This document shows, piece after piece, positions 30,285 through 57,276 of a DNA stretch of 64,000 nt; the first letter of the stretch is position 1; the number at the start of each line of letters is the position of its first letter. The notes below the pieces were generated by a model. The model saw only the letters and a list, made by a program, of their open reading frames with translations, was not told where the DNA came from and made no database searches. Both the position numbers and the translations under genes were made by a program. Origin of the DNA: Anaerolineae bacterium (GTDB lineage Bacteria > Chloroflexota > Anaerolineae > SpSt-600); the NCBI GenBank assembly GCA_025062375.1, contig JANXAG010000008.1, positions 1-64,000 of the forward strand, read 5' to 3'.

Positions 30285-31652
30285 TTAAGGGACGAGAGCT
30301 GTTCTAATTCCCCGCAGTAGTATTTCTTCCTCCTCCGGAAGAACCGTGCGGGGGTCAAAGAGAACCAGGTCCTCCTCTATCCGCACAATTATGGGAGGTT
30401 TATAGCTCCGTAGAGCACGAGCTGCGGCGGCTGGTGAGGGTACCCGCAGGGCCAGAAGCCAGGTGGGAAGAGTATCACCGGGCAAGCTCCCTCCCCCAAT
30501 CGCTGACTGACCCTCTATGACCTCAGCCCTGAAACCAAATTCCCGCAGTCGCCTGGCCCAGCGTTGCGCCCTCCGTTTAAGTCCCGCCAGGTCTGCCGAT
30601 ATCATGCGCCAGACAGGAACCTTCTGCTCAGCCTCCCCTTTGAGGTAATGGAGAAGGGTGGCTTGAAGACCTGCGAGGGTTATTTTGTCAACCCTCAGAG
30701 CCCTGGTAAGGGGAAATTTCTTGAGGCGTTCAATTATTTCCTTTCGTCCTACGATTATTCCAGCTTGAGGGCCACCTAAGAGTTTATCCCCGCTGAAGCA
30801 AACCACATCAGCTCCGGCCGCTACGCTTTCCTGAACCATGGGCTCGTGGGTTAAACCGTAGCGAGAGGTGTCCAACAGCGCCCCACTTCCGAGATCATCC
30901 ATAAGCCAGAGCCCACGGCGGTGGGCCAGATCGGCCAGCTCGCTCAGAGGGACGTCATGGATAAAGCCGGTGATGCGGAAATTGGAGCGATGCGCCCTGA
31001 GAATAAGGGCGGTGTTTTCGGTTATGGCTTCCTCATAGTCCCGAAGGTATGTGCGGTTGGTGGTGCCTACTTCTATAAGAATTGCTCCACTCTGACGCAT
31101 AACATCAGGGATGCGGAAGCCACCCCCAATTTCCACCAGCTGGCTCCGGGATATTATAACCTCTCTGCCTCTGGCCAGAGCCGAAAGGACAAGCAGCACT
31201 GCTCCAGCGTTGTTGTTCACCACAAGAGCAGCTTCTGCTCCCGTTAGACGCGTAAGCAGGTTTTCAGCGTGAACGTAACGAGAGCCACGGCGTCCCTCTT
31301 CAAGGTCAAATTCCAGATTGCAATACCCCCGAGCCACTGCTTCCATAGCAGCTCTGGCTTCAACGCTTAACGGCGCTCGCCCCAGGTTGGTGTGAATGAT
31401 AACACCGGTGGCATTAATAAGGGGGTAGAGGGAGGGGGAGATGGTTTTCAGAAAGATGTTCTTCGCCTCGCCGGCTATTTCTTCAGAGGGAGGGCACTTC
31501 TCCCCGGCGAGAATCCGCCTGCGAGCTCTATCTACCGCTTCCCTGGCTGCTTCTACCACCAGCTCCCGACTGTATTCTTCAATAAGGGGGGAAAGAAGTT
31601 CGCTCCTTAAAAGTTCATCCACACTTGGGAGCCTTCGTAGTTCCTCGTTCAT
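30285..31652 (-). CDS. selA: L-seryl-tRNA(Sec) selenium transferase
   Basis: A 455-residue PLP enzyme converting seryl-tRNA(Sec) to selenocysteyl-tRNA(Sec) with selenophosphate. Family blocks: INATGVIIHTNLGRAPLS, LVVNNNAGAVLL, EVGTTNRTYLRDYE, and the PLP-lysine K290 in FSGDKLLGGPQAG. Its length is typical. It overlaps the aldolase gene upstream by ATGA and is the last gene of a long operon. Its presence implies selenoprotein synthesis in this organism; selB, selD and tRNA-Sec are not in the window. A candidate selenoprotein is at 51499-52143. Confidence 0.93.
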   Translation of the reverse strand: MNEELRRLPSVDELLRSELLSPLIEEYSRELVVEAAREAVDRARRRILAGEKCPPSEEIAGEAKNIFLKTISPSLYPLINATGVIIHTNLGRAPLSVEARAAMEAVARGYCNLEFDLEEGRRGSRYVHAENLLTRLTGAEAALVVNNNAGAVLLVLSALARGREVIISRSQLVEIGGGFRIPDVMRQSGAILIEVGTTNRTYLRDYEEAITENTALILRAHRSNFRITGFIHDVPLSELADLAHRRGLWLMDDLGSGALLDTSRYGLTHEPMVQESVAAGADVVCFSGDKLLGGPQAGIIVGRKEIIERLKKFPLTRALRVDKITLAGLQATLLHYLKGEAEQKVPVWRMISADLAGLKRRAQRWARRLREFGFRAEVIEGQSAIGGGSLPGDTLPTWLLALRVPSPAAAARALRSYKPPIIVRIEEDLVLFDPRTVLPEEEEILLRGIRTALVP

Positions 31653-51231: not shown

Positions 51232-51438
51232 ATGCCCATTTACGAGTATAAGTGCACGAAGTGTGGGGAAGAATTTGAAGCCTTTGTCCTTTCCATTTTG
51301 GCCAAGGCTGATGAAGTGGAATGTCCGCGGTGTAGGAGCCGAGAAGTCAAGCGTAAAATTTCACTTTTCGGCTTTGCTGGCTCTAAGGGGAGCACTGGCA
51401 TTACGGGTTCATCCTGCTCTTCCTTTTCTGTAGGCTGA
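51232..51438 (+). CDS. FmdB-family zinc ribbon protein
   Basis: A 68-residue protein with the CxxC pairs C8/C11 and C31/C34 (MPIYEYKCTKCGEEFE ... ECPRC), typical of the FmdB/putative regulatory protein family. It ends in a Gly/Ser/Cys-rich tail. ATG 51232 is used; GTG 51223 is in frame but lies within the ribosome site region AGAGGAGGTG. It is the first gene after the operator. Confidence 0.8.
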   Translation: MPIYEYKCTKCGEEFEAFVLSILAKADEVECPRCRSREVKRKISLFGFAGSKGSTGITGSSCSSFSVG

Positions 51439-51498: not shown

Positions 51499-52143
51499 AT
51501 GCCCTTGATTCCCGCCAAGGAGAGAGAGCATATAAAGAAGTTCTTCGAAGAAAACCTGGTAAATCCCGTTCGCCTGGTAATGTTCACCCAGGAGATTGAG
51601 TGCGAATACTGTGCCGAAACAAGGCAATTGGTGGAGGAAATAGCTCAGCTTTCCCCCAAAATCACTGCCGAAATATACAATTTTATAACTGATAAAGCCG
51701 AGGCCGAAAAGTATAAAGTGGATAAAATCCCGGCCATTGCCGTAATCGGCCAGAAGGATTACGGCATCCGTTTTTACGGGATACCCTCAGGCTATGAGTT
51801 CACCGTCCTCCTGGAAGGCATTGTGGATGTATCGCGCGGAGAATCAGGCCTTTCGGAAGCCAGCAAAAAGGCTCTGGCAACTCTTTCCAAGCCCGTCCAC
51901 ATCCAGGTTTTCGTCACCCCAACCTGACCATATTGCCCTATGGCGGTCAGGTTGGCCCACAAAATGGCTATTGAAAGCGATTTTGTCCGGGCGGATATGG
52001 TAGAAGCTATAGAATTTCCCCATCTCGCTGTAAAGTATCACGTCCACGGCGTTCCCAAGACTGTCGTTAATGAAACTTTCTTCATCGAAGGGGCCATGCC
52101 CGAAGTGCTTTTTGTCCAGCAAGTAGTTAGATCCGTAAAGTAA
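51499..52143 (+). CDS. Selenocysteine-containing protein disulfide oxidoreductase (double thioredoxin fold)
   Basis: A 214-residue protein if TGA at 51925-51927 is read as selenocysteine. The first thioredoxin-like unit carries C35-E-Y-C38. The second carries Sec143-P-Y-Cys146, in VFVTPT-U-PYCPMAV. In homologous protein disulfide oxidoreductases of thermophiles this motif is CPYC, so TGA sits precisely at the nucleophilic Cys. The frame continues without interruption to TAA at 52141, and downstream residues ([10 protein letters not shown]) match the thioredoxin cis-Pro region. A hairpin with an AGGU loop lies 21 bases after the TGA. SelA is encoded in this window. A point mutation or error is the alternative. 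The operon and operator suggest a redox-regulated role. Confidence 0.8.
51941..51959 (+). promoter_or_regulatory. Candidate bacterial SECIS hairpin
   Basis: GGTC (51945-51948) pairs with GGCC (51954-51957, one G-U) around the loop AGGTT (51949-51953). UG/CA pairs extend below an internal bulge. The loop begins 21 bases after the UGA and carries a G in its first two positions, meeting the published spacing and loop rules. The AGGU loop also resembles the E. coli fdhF SECIS loop. Confidence 0.5.
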
Positions 52144-52153
52144 GAGGGTAAAA

Positions 52154-52372
52154 ATGCAGGAGCTTATCCTCGTTATCCGGAAACAAATAAGTCACTGGAT
52201 TGAGCACAATAACGAGCACGCAGAAAAATTCCAGGAGTGGGCCGCTAAGGCCGAGGGAGCCGGCTTCAAGGGAGTCTCTGAAAGGCTTCAGAAAGCTTCT
52301 TCCCTCCTGAGAGAAGCCTCCAGAGAACTGGAAGCTGCTTACAAGGAACTTGAAACTGTCCAGCTCGTGTAG
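52154..52372 (+). CDS. Small all-helical protein of unknown function
   Basis: A 72-residue, Glu/Lys/Ala-rich helical protein with no cysteines (ISHWIEHNNEHAEKFQEWAAKAE), forming probably two or three helices. It lies 10 bases after the selenoprotein and two before the ferredoxin gene, so it belongs to the operon. The HNNEH segment could bind metal but I do not recognise the family. Confidence 0.6.
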   Translation: MQELILVIRKQISHWIEHNNEHAEKFQEWAAKAEGAGFKGVSERLQKASSLLREASRELEAAYKELETVQLV

Positions 52373-52374
52373 CC

Positions 52375-52596
52375 ATGGCTCTCCCACGCATTGAGATCAA
52401 TGCTGAATGGTGCAAGGCTTGTTACCTTTGCGTGGAGATGTGTCCCCGCAAGGTGCTGGAAATTGATTATTCTCGTTTCGTCAATGGCTTGCATCCGGTT
52501 ATTCCAGTTCACCTGGAAAAGTGCACTGTCTGCAGGCTCTGTGAGCTCTGGTGCCCTGATGTAGCTATTGTCGTTTCCGGGGAGGAAGATGCCTGA
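52375..52596 (+). CDS. korD: 2[4Fe-4S] ferredoxin, delta subunit of 2-oxoacid oxidoreductase
   Basis: A 73-residue ferredoxin with two CxxCxxCxxxCP motifs (CKACYLCVEMCP and CTVCRLCELWCP), the layout of KorD/PorD subunits. It carries electrons from the 2-oxoacid oxidoreductase. Its end overlaps the ribosome site of korA. Confidence 0.85.
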   Translation: MALPRIEINAEWCKACYLCVEMCPRKVLEIDYSRFVNGLHPVIPVHLEKCTVCRLCELWCPDVAIVVSGEEDA

Positions 52597-53770
52597 AGGG
52601 GGATGGATTACCCGTAAAACTCTGCTTCCAGCAGGACGATATTTCCTGCAGGGGGATGAGGCTTGCGCCGAGGGGGCTATTGCCGCTGGGTGCAATTACT
52701 ACGCCGGTTATCCCATCACCCCCGCAAGCGAGATTATGCATTATATCTGCCGCCGCTTTCTGGAACTTGATGACGGCAGGGTTTTTATCCAGATGGAAGA
52801 TGAGATTGGCTCTATTGCTTCCTGCATCGGAGCCTCGTGGGCTGGAGCAAAGGCTATGACTGCCACCAGCGGCCCGGGTATATCCTTGATGCTGGAAAAC
52901 ATCGGTTACGCCATAATGACTGAAACACCCGTTGTGGTGGTGGATGTCCAGAGGGCAGGACCCGCTACCGGCCAGGCTACACGCCCCGCTCAAGGGGATG
53001 TGATGCAATTACGATGGGGAGCCCACGGGGATTACGAAATAATCGTTTTGGCCCCGTGGTCGGTTCAGGAAATGTTTGACCTCACATTGAGAGCTTTTAA
53101 CCTCGCCGAAAAGTTCCGGGTCCCGGTTATAGTAGCAGCTGATGAGGCCGTAGGGCACATGAGGGAAAATTTGATTATACCCCCAGAGGTGGAGGTTTAC
53201 GAGAGAATTAAACCCCTGCCAGGGGAAAATATCCCACCCTTCGGCGGGGTGGAGGTCCCCCCCATGCCCATCTTTGGGCGGGGCCATAAGGTTCTGGTAA
53301 CTGGCTCAACTCATGATGAATGGGGATACAGGCGGACCGTCAGCGCCAGAGCCCAGGCTTCTCTCATTTCCCGTTTTCGGGAGAAAATCCTCAACCATCT
53401 GGTTGAAATTGTCCAGGTAGATAGAAGGTTCTGTGATGGAGATATAGACGTGCTGGTTTTCGCTTACGGTTTTACGGCCAGGAGCGCTCTGGCGGCTGTA
53501 AAAGAAGCCCGTAAGAGAGGGATTAAAGCAGCTCTCTTCCGCCCTCAAACCCTCTGGCCCTTCCCCGAACAGGAGCTTCTGGCTCTCAAAGGGAAGGTGG
53601 ACAAAGTGCTGGTGGCTGAAATGAACCAGGGCCAGATTTTGAGGGAAGTGCAGAGATTTCTGCCCCAGGCTGTGGGGTATAACCGAACCGATGGCGAAGT
53701 GATAACTCCCTCTGAAGTCCTGGAAGCCATAGAGAAGCTTCTCGGGAGGTCGGCAAATGAAGCTGCATGA
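52589..53770 (+). CDS. korA: 2-oxoglutarate:ferredoxin oxidoreductase alpha subunit
   Basis: A 393-residue subunit that, with KorB, oxidatively decarboxylates 2-oxoglutarate (or another 2-oxoacid) to the acyl-CoA with reduced ferredoxin, or runs in reverse for carbon fixation. Motifs: [28 protein letters not shown] and [17 protein letters not shown], then [21 protein letters not shown] 52589 has GGGGAGGA upstream. The TPP subunit KorB is not next to it, which is unusual: sucC follows instead, overlapping by ATGA. Confidence 0.88.
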
Positions 53771-54902: not shown

Positions 54903-54961
54903 GGGGGGCAAAGCTGCTGAGATAAGGAAGGGGCTTCGCTCCCTTCCACCCCCAAATTTTT

Positions 54962-55281
54962 CCCACCCTCGTGGGCGTAGGGTTTGCTACGGTTAGGGTC
55001 CCACTCGTGGGCGGGTTGCAAAGGGTGGTTGATGGCTCCCTTTTTGAGGTTTTTTGGGGGACACCCCCAAACCCCCGGGATGGGGGCTTCGCCCCCCTCC
55101 AACCCCCGATTTCCCACCCTCGTGGGCTCAGGGTTCGCCATGGTTTTGGGTCCCCACTCGTGGGCAGGATGTAAGGGGTGGCTGATGGCTCCCCTTTTGA
55201 GGTTTCTGGGGAGACACCCTCAAACTCCCGGGAGGAGGGTTCAGGGTTCGCCACGGCTAAAGGTCCCACTCGTGGGGCGGT
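54962..55281. repeat. Degenerate tandem repeat of about 151 bp, hairpin-rich
   Basis: The intergenic block 54903-55284 holds about 2.2 copies of a unit. The word 'cccaccctcgtgggc' occurs at 54962 and 55113. A block 'agggtt-gc-acgg ... tcccactcgtggg' begins at 54979, 55130 and 55243. The word 'gatggctccc' is spaced by 152. Many short palindromes (CCCACTCGTGGG, GGGGGCTTCGCCCCC) are included. It is likely a genome-wide interspersed element rather than a gene; it is bounded by sucC and the tRNA promoter. Confidence 0.75.
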
Positions 55282-55284
55282 CGC

Positions 55285-55324: not shown

Positions 55325-55415
55325 GGAGAGGTGCGAGAGTGGACGAATCGGCGCGACTGGAAATCGCGTGGGCGTCTAAAACGGCGCCTCGTGGGTTCGA
55401 ATCCCACCCTCTCCG
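55325..55415 (+). tRNA. tRNA-Ser (anticodon GGA)
   Basis: A 91-base type II tRNA. Acceptor arms GGAGAGG and CCTCTCC plus discriminator G pair fully. The anticodon stem CGCGA/TCGCG flanks loop CTGGAAA with anticodon GGA (reads UCC and UCU). A long variable arm (TGGGCGTCTAAAACGGCGCC) identifies a serine tRNA. The T arm is GTGGG-TTCGAAT-CCCAC. The 3' CCA is not encoded; the genome reads CCT after the discriminator. Confidence 0.93.
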
Positions 55416-55422
55416 CCTGAGA

Positions 55423-57276
55423 ATGAAGAGTTGGCAGCTTAAAGTTTTAGCATGCCAACTCTTATTTTTTACCCCCCTTGTCCTCCTGGCCTGCGCTCAC
55501 TCCCCACAGTGGCAACCCATTCACAATGACCTCAAACCTCAGGTGTTTGTCCTTTCCGTAGCCGAAAATTCTTCAGGGCTATGGGCCGCAGTCTATGCTA
55601 ATCCAGGCCTCTACTTCTCCCCCAATGGAGGAAAAACATGGCAACCGGTTGAGGCTGGCCTCCACCCCGGGCCCGTTTTTTCCCTCAAGCCCGACCCACT
55701 AAACCCTGAAACCATTTACGCTGGAACATCAAAAGGGGTGGTTAGGTGCAAAGGCAAACCTCTTTCCTGCATTAGTGTGGGGGAAAACCTCCCTCCCGTT
55801 AGAATTTATGCTTTAGCCTTTTCTTCCGATGGCACCCTTTACGCTTCCCCCGATGAGGCCCCCATTCATCGGCTCCGGGGTGAAGAGTGGGAACCCCTTT
55901 CGCCTATAAAAGCAACAGCTCTCGTTCTGCTCCCACACCCACAAGATCCTTTGACCCTTTATGCCGGAACAGCTGGCCAAGGGGTATGGAAAACTGAAGA
56001 TGGTGGTTTGAGCTGGCGCAATACTTCGGTAAATTCGGGAATGCGTCACGTCTACGCTCTGGCCGTTAACCCCCTTAATCCCGGGGAAATCTTCGCTGGA
56101 ACAAGAGAAGGTTTGTTTTTCTCGGAAGACGGGGGAGAAACCTGGAAAAAGCTTGATTCGCCCCTTTCCGTTCCAGCGGCGCTTCTATTCTCTTCCGATG
56201 GAGCTCTGTACGCCGGAGAGCAAAGCCCAGACCCCGCCCGTAACCGTTTCGGAGTTTACAGAAGCTTTGACAGGGGAAAATCGTGGGAGAAGCTTCCCGG
56301 TTTTCCCTCCTCAGTTTCCATATTTTCCCTCGCCGAAGGCCCCTCCGCCTTTTATGCAGGTGGGCTACAGGGCCTTTTCAAAAGCGCCAGTAAAACCACA
56401 CCCTGGAAAGAAGTGGAAACAGGCCCAGGAGGCCCTCTTATCCTCGGAATTGCCCTTTCTCCCAAAGGCGATGCCCTCTACGCCATGACGGGGAAAGGCT
56501 TGTACATCTCTCTCAACGAAGGCGAAACCTGGACTCCGCTCCTGGAAGGATGGGGAGTGCAGAGCATCGCTTTCCATCCCCATGATCCCCAGACCTTTTA
56601 CGTGGGAGTTATAGGTCATGGGATATGGATAGGAGGAAAATGGGAGCCTATAAGTCCTTCTCTGACCGGATTGAGCGTTCCCCAGCTAATAATAGACCCC
56701 GAAAACCCACAGTTTTTCTATGCCCGCATCTCTTACGATCGGCTTTTCCGAAGCTCTGATGGGGGAAAAACTTTCAAGAGCATTTGGGAAGGTATGAAGC
56801 TTAGCGATGAGGTCCTCTGCGTTGCCTACGATGCCCGGAACCCCGGCACTCTCCTGGCCGGCGCCACCGAAAACCTTTACATCTCCCGCAACAGGGGCGA
56901 TTTCTGGGAAATAATTCCCGGTCCTTTCCAGGGCCAAAGCATCCTGGCCGTAGCCATACACCCTGCTAAACCCGGCTACTTTTATGTCGGAGCTACCAGA
57001 GGTTTGTATGTAAGCACCGATTATGGCCAATCCTGGAAAATGGCAGGCTTTGAGGATACCACGGTATCAGCCATAACCCTTGACCCTCAAAACCCTGATA
57101 CGATTTACATCGGAACAAGGTACTCGGGTTTGTTCCGGAGCAAAGATGGAGGGAAATCCTGGGAATTTATCGGGGATGGGCTGCCCCTGGAAATAAGGCA
57201 AGTACTGGTAAATCCGAGCGGCAGGTTATTTGTCCGTACCGCTGAAGGAATTTACAAAGGTGCGGTGAAACCGTGA
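55423..57276 (+). CDS. Lipoprotein with beta-propeller (BNR/Asp-box, YCF48-like) repeats
   Basis: A 617-residue exported lipoprotein, lipobox LLAC (C24). The rest is a two-part beta-propeller with about a dozen copies of a sialidase-type Asp-box (S.DGG.TW, e.g. SPNGGKTWQ, SEDGGETWKK, SKDGGKSWE). Such domains bind glycans or proteins, or form photosystem/secretion assembly scaffolds. It has no clear sialidase active site. The start ATG is only seven bases after the tRNA-Ser end and has no ribosome site, so it may be translated from a near-leaderless transcript. It overlaps the glycosidase gene by GTGA. Confidence 0.8.
   Translation: MKSWQLKVLACQLLFFTPLVLLACAHSPQWQPIHNDLKPQVFVLSVAENSSGLWAAVYANPGLYFSPNGGKTWQPVEAGLHPGPVFSLKPDPLNPETIYAGTSKGVVRCKGKPLSCISVGENLPPVRIYALAFSSDGTLYASPDEAPIHRLRGEEWEPLSPIKATALVLLPHPQDPLTLYAGTAGQGVWKTEDGGLSWRNTSVNSGMRHVYALAVNPLNPGEIFAGTREGLFFSEDGGETWKKLDSPLSVPAALLFSSDGALYAGEQSPDPARNRFGVYRSFDRGKSWEKLPGFPSSVSIFSLAEGPSAFYAGGLQGLFKSASKTTPWKEVETGPGGPLILGIALSPKGDALYAMTGKGLYISLNEGETWTPLLEGWGVQSIAFHPHDPQTFYVGVIGHGIWIGGKWEPISPSLTGLSVPQLIIDPENPQFFYARISYDRLFRSSDGGKTFKSIWEGMKLSDEVLCVAYDARNPGTLLAGATENLYISRNRGDFWEIIPGPFQGQSILAVAIHPAKPGYFYVGATRGLYVSTDYGQSWKMAGFEDTTVSAITLDPQNPDTIYIGTRYSGLFRSKDGGKSWEFIGDGLPLEIRQVLVNPSGRLFVRTAEGIYKGAVKP

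Follow-up and report, generated by a model that had tools for sequence, protein, structure and literature searches.

A probable selenocysteine at the C-terminal redox site of a two-thioredoxin-fold protein disulfide oxidoreductase from an Anaerolineae bacterium

The window, a stretch of 64,000 nucleotides from contig JANXAG010000008.1 of an Anaerolineae bacterium, contains a gene for a protein disulfide oxidoreductase (PDO) with an in-frame TGA codon. The PDO gene, its predicted RNA elements, its neighbours and a selenocysteine synthase gene of the same window lie as follows:

30285–31652, minus strand: selA (selenocysteine synthase), matching TIGR00474 with 590 bits (cut-off 268)
51232–51438, plus strand: upstream gene for an FmdB-type zinc-ribbon protein, all-Cys (PF09723/TIGR02605)
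51499–52143, plus strand: predicted PDO selenoprotein gene (TIGR02187), 214 amino acids with Sec143, from frame, structure alignment and NCBIfam profile
51601–51612, plus strand: N-terminal CEYC redox motif, all Cys, residues 35–38, from translation and homologue alignment
51919–51955, plus strand: predicted alternative long stem, 51919–51929 pairing with 51945–51955 and the UGA inside (71-nt fold of −30.9 kcal/mol, z −5.5)
51925–51927, plus strand: in-frame UGA, probably read as selenocysteine, opening the C-terminal UPYC redox motif; 80 Cys homologues, 1a8l and 1j08 have the Cys of CPYC at this column, and a congener keeps the TGA
51945–51957, plus strand: SECIS-type apical hairpin GGUCA[GGU]UGGCC, +18 to +30, whose 5' arm stops 22 nt past the UGA, from hairpin statistics and compensatory variants
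52154–52372, plus strand: small downstream ORF of 72 residues, charged, without Pfam or NCBIfam match in profile searches and, on locus comparison, found otherwise only in the congener
52375–53770, plus strand: delta (ferredoxin) and alpha subunits of a 2-oxoacid:acceptor oxidoreductase, from Pfam and NCBIfam profiles

The PDO frame starts at an ATG (51499) with AAGGAGGG, a good ribosome-binding sequence, just ahead of it, runs for 142 codons to the TGA at 51925–51927 (residue 143) and continues for 71 more in-frame codons to a TAA at 52141–52143. As originally predicted, this TGA is the sole interruption of the 214-residue frame. In the read-through product, each thioredoxin unit has its own CXXC-type motif: CEYC at residues 35–38, intact as had been claimed, and UPYC at residues 143–146. 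An NCBIfam profile search matched it to TIGR02187 with 288 bits (cut-off 185) over residues 7–211, in agreement with the claim that thioredoxin features persist after the TGA. It also aligned end to end with the PDOs of Pyrococcus horikoshii (1j08) and Pyrococcus furiosus (1a8l), with E about 1e-56, and the TGA sits exactly over the first Cys of their C-terminal CPYC. In a window-wide scan for TGA read-through frames, judged by eye, the PDO was the only one recognized as a single continuous domain, and most of the other long frames were adjacent genes or antisense frames. By homology, the protein would be a cytosolic, two-site disulfide oxidoreductase, and its family suggests thiol-disulfide oxidoreductase activity.

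Upstream of the PDO lies the FmdB-type gene, a homologue of which was found near the PDO in 17 of 129 loci. Downstream follow the small ORF, the ferredoxin-like delta subunit, the alpha subunit and then sucC; between 52375 and 54902, which spans both subunits and sucC, no beta (TPP) subunit was recognized among the neighbouring ORFs. Among 129 loci, many with short flanks, no genus but this one showed the same order of neighbours, FmdB excepted. The PDO gene had been placed in an operon with 2-oxoacid oxidoreductase genes: these genes do lie beside it here, but as this was seen in the one genus only, it does not speak for a functional link. Further downstream, imperfect G-rich direct repeats with a unit of about 153 nt occupy 54930–55284, in the stretch that separates sucC from a tRNA-Ser(GGA) gene (55325–55417). 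A listed ORF with a GTG start (55339–57276) overlaps this tRNA gene, and its real start is probably further downstream. The host is likely a thermophile closely related to hot-spring Anaerolineae, judging from a congeneric MAG, RSWS10.

The original prediction proposed counting TGA and Cys codons at the column of residue 143. Among the first 30 homologue loci, TGA was present in 7 and TGC or TGT in 23, and across all distinct fetched homologues we counted 37 TGA versus 80 Cys codons. The one further genome available from this genus belongs to a second species; its PDO is 91% identical to that of the window, and its gene has the same TGA.

The same prediction suggested a search for selB, selD and tRNA-Sec, all three of which were found in the genome. 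With selA, they form a complete set: selB matched its profile with 356 bits (cut-off 242), tRNA-Sec has the anticodon tca (UCA), and selD contains an in-frame UGA within CAGUAGK. The selD gene (L048, minus strand 1501–2436) is a selenoprotein gene itself, its UGA falling at the position of the Sec residue in Sec-type SelD proteins. For genomes with a listed PDO gene and a completeness of 90% or more, selB was present in 21 of 21 carrying the TGA version versus 74 of 86 carrying the Cys version (p = 0.06). As selB is common in the class, its presence is weak support for the Sec state. Five incomplete genomes with a TGA gene showed no selB match; three of the five have selA.

To describe the RNA downstream of the UGA, we scored hairpins whose stem had 5 or more pairs, with a G within the first two nucleotides of the loop and a 5' arm ending +17 or +22 after the UGA. 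Such hairpins were present in 35 of 37 Sec genes versus 10 of 80 Cys genes, although the two positions were picked after inspection of the same data and the sequences are related. When the hairpin was allowed anywhere from 13 to 34, the counts were 36 of 37 versus 39 of 80 (p = 6e-8, again for related sequences). Restricting the analysis to one Sec/Cys pair per supported branch left only 7 comparisons that are independent; most of them point the expected way, with a median p of 0.06. The stems of Sec genes vary in sequence yet stay paired (GCGAGC..GCUCGC, CCAGGC..GCCUGG, GCAC..GUGC, CAGGGC..GCCCUG), and compensatory variants also occur in the register of the window's gene (GGUCA..UGGCC, GGUCA..UGACC, AGUCA..UGGCU). 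In a same-genus pair, the stem CGCGAGC..GCUCGCG of the Sec gene (L055) is broken in the Cys gene (L007) by one synonymous CGA → CGC difference. Around the site, these two PDO genes (L055, G072:C98; L007, G003:C84) hardly differ.

When 71 nt around the window's UGA were folded, the long UGA-containing stem was preferred over the short apical hairpin. This long stem is common to the window's gene and several relatives, not to all Sec genes, and either of the two predicted structures may be the element that SelB recognizes in the window's gene. Folding energy from +3 to +42, compared with synonymous shuffling, did not separate Sec and Cys genes (p = 0.19); with 12 nt of upstream sequence added, Sec genes exceeded Cys genes only modestly (p about 0.01). 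A search of 51850–52060 with all Rfam families gave no match, and RF00031 had no match in the genome, but none in any control either.

Because Cys homologues align at the codon, a SECIS-type hairpin follows it and selA, selB, selD and tRNA-Sec are all present, the predicted selenocysteine in the UPYC motif of a double-thioredoxin PDO is well supported. We put the probability that UGA codon 143 is decoded as selenocysteine at roughly 0.95. The best of the competing explanations, itself quite improbable, takes the TGA as a true stop, leaving either a recent pseudogene or a one-domain protein of 142 residues. UGA is indeed an ordinary stop elsewhere in the genome, and in systems already characterized Sec insertion has to compete with termination. 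However, the congener retains the same TGA with no other lesion and a fully conserved downstream half, TGA recurs at exactly this column in 37 sequences, and the Sec machinery is complete. Decoding of UGA as Cys or Trp, through a reassigned code or a suppressor, is less probable still: nothing was found in its favour, tRNA-Sec(UCA) and selA, selB and selD are present, and the aligned column is that of the catalytic Cys, a classical Sec/Cys exchange. A sequencing or assembly error for TGC or TGT might be suspected in a 94-contig draft assembly whose close relatives are MAGs, but it was rejected, being refuted by the congener, an independent genome of the same genus with TGA and hairpin, as are found in many unrelated genomes too; as 37 homologues also carry TGA at this column, neither chance nor sequencing error can lie behind the codon.

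With codon 143 read as selenocysteine, SelB carrying Sec-tRNA(UCA) would bind the hairpin immediately downstream of the UGA, and the inserted Sec would stand where the C-terminal CPYC site has its nucleophilic Cys. The selenolate would then attack protein disulfides, with the second Cys resolving the intermediate via an Se–S bond, and the N-terminal CEYC site would remain thiol-based. The protein would probably serve in the cytosol as a thiol-disulfide reductase acting on proteins or peroxiredoxins. In the PDO of Sulfolobus solfataricus, the C-terminal site dominates thiol-transferase activity (PMC7465337); isomerase activity of the Sulfolobus enzyme needs both sites, and electrons pass from thioredoxin reductase through it to peroxiredoxins (PMC7465337).

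On the best tree of 117 proteins, at least 14 Sec/Cys changes, in either direction, were required, 7 of them forced by supported branches. Mixed states occur inside single genera or families (L055 with L007; L057 and L059 with L056; L162 and L164 with L020). On balance, we favour a view in which the PDO active site of this class switches repeatedly between Sec and Cys, with hairpins that sit in either of two registers (+17 or +22), vary in sequence from lineage to lineage and are removed by synonymous changes where the residue is Cys. If this holds, the family would be a fine-grained natural experiment in selenocysteine gain and loss. Close Sec/Cys pairs in one genus allow tests of the benefit that Sec brings to a disulfide oxidoreductase with two sites and of how the SECIS disappears.

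The family is already on record as one of selenoproteins: from Carboxydothermus hydrogenoformans and Symbiobacterium thermophilum, it was listed by Zhang et al. (2006) under the name 'homolog of AhpF N-terminal domain' (PMC1794560), and reviews from 2022 and 2026 tie this AhpF-homolog selenoprotein to TIGR02187, UxxC and ABB15282.1 (PMC9312934, PMC13188914). The current name of the TIGR02187 model in NCBIfam is PDO_seleno_TRX, formerly GlrX_arch. Because of this name and the 2006 listing, the window's PDO is not a new kind of selenoprotein but a further member of a family described since 2006, and calling it an uncommon selenoprotein was an overstatement, as Sec forms are also frequent in the class. 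What it adds is a Sec-containing PDO that has good support and comes from a Chloroflexota lineage likely to be thermophilic, a single finding of modest interest given that the family is known.

The Carboxydothermus (ABB15282.1) and Symbiobacterium proteins belong to the same TIGR02187 family and have a single Sec in a UxxC motif, which in ABB15282.1 may be the C-terminal or the N-terminal one. Thermophilic hosts were among the first known examples, as is likely here, whereas the host phylum differs, the window's host belonging to a Chloroflexota class. The PDOs of P. furiosus and P. horikoshii (1a8l, 1j08) and Sulfolobus (SsPDO) are likewise built from two thioredoxin units with a CXXC in each, and both Pyrococcus proteins align with the window's PDO over their whole length and have a C-terminal CPYC, but all of these have Cys at the C-terminal site where the window's PDO would carry Sec. 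Bacterial Sec-thioredoxins and Sec-glutaredoxins also have a thioredoxin fold in which U is the nucleophile of a UXXC motif; unlike the window's PDO, they are single-domain proteins of separate families. The SECIS of Escherichia coli fdhF is a hairpin just 3' of the UGA, as here, but differs in sequence. Its apical loop begins about 17 nt after the UGA, as in most Sec PDO genes analysed here, and that of the window's gene starts 5 nt further on.
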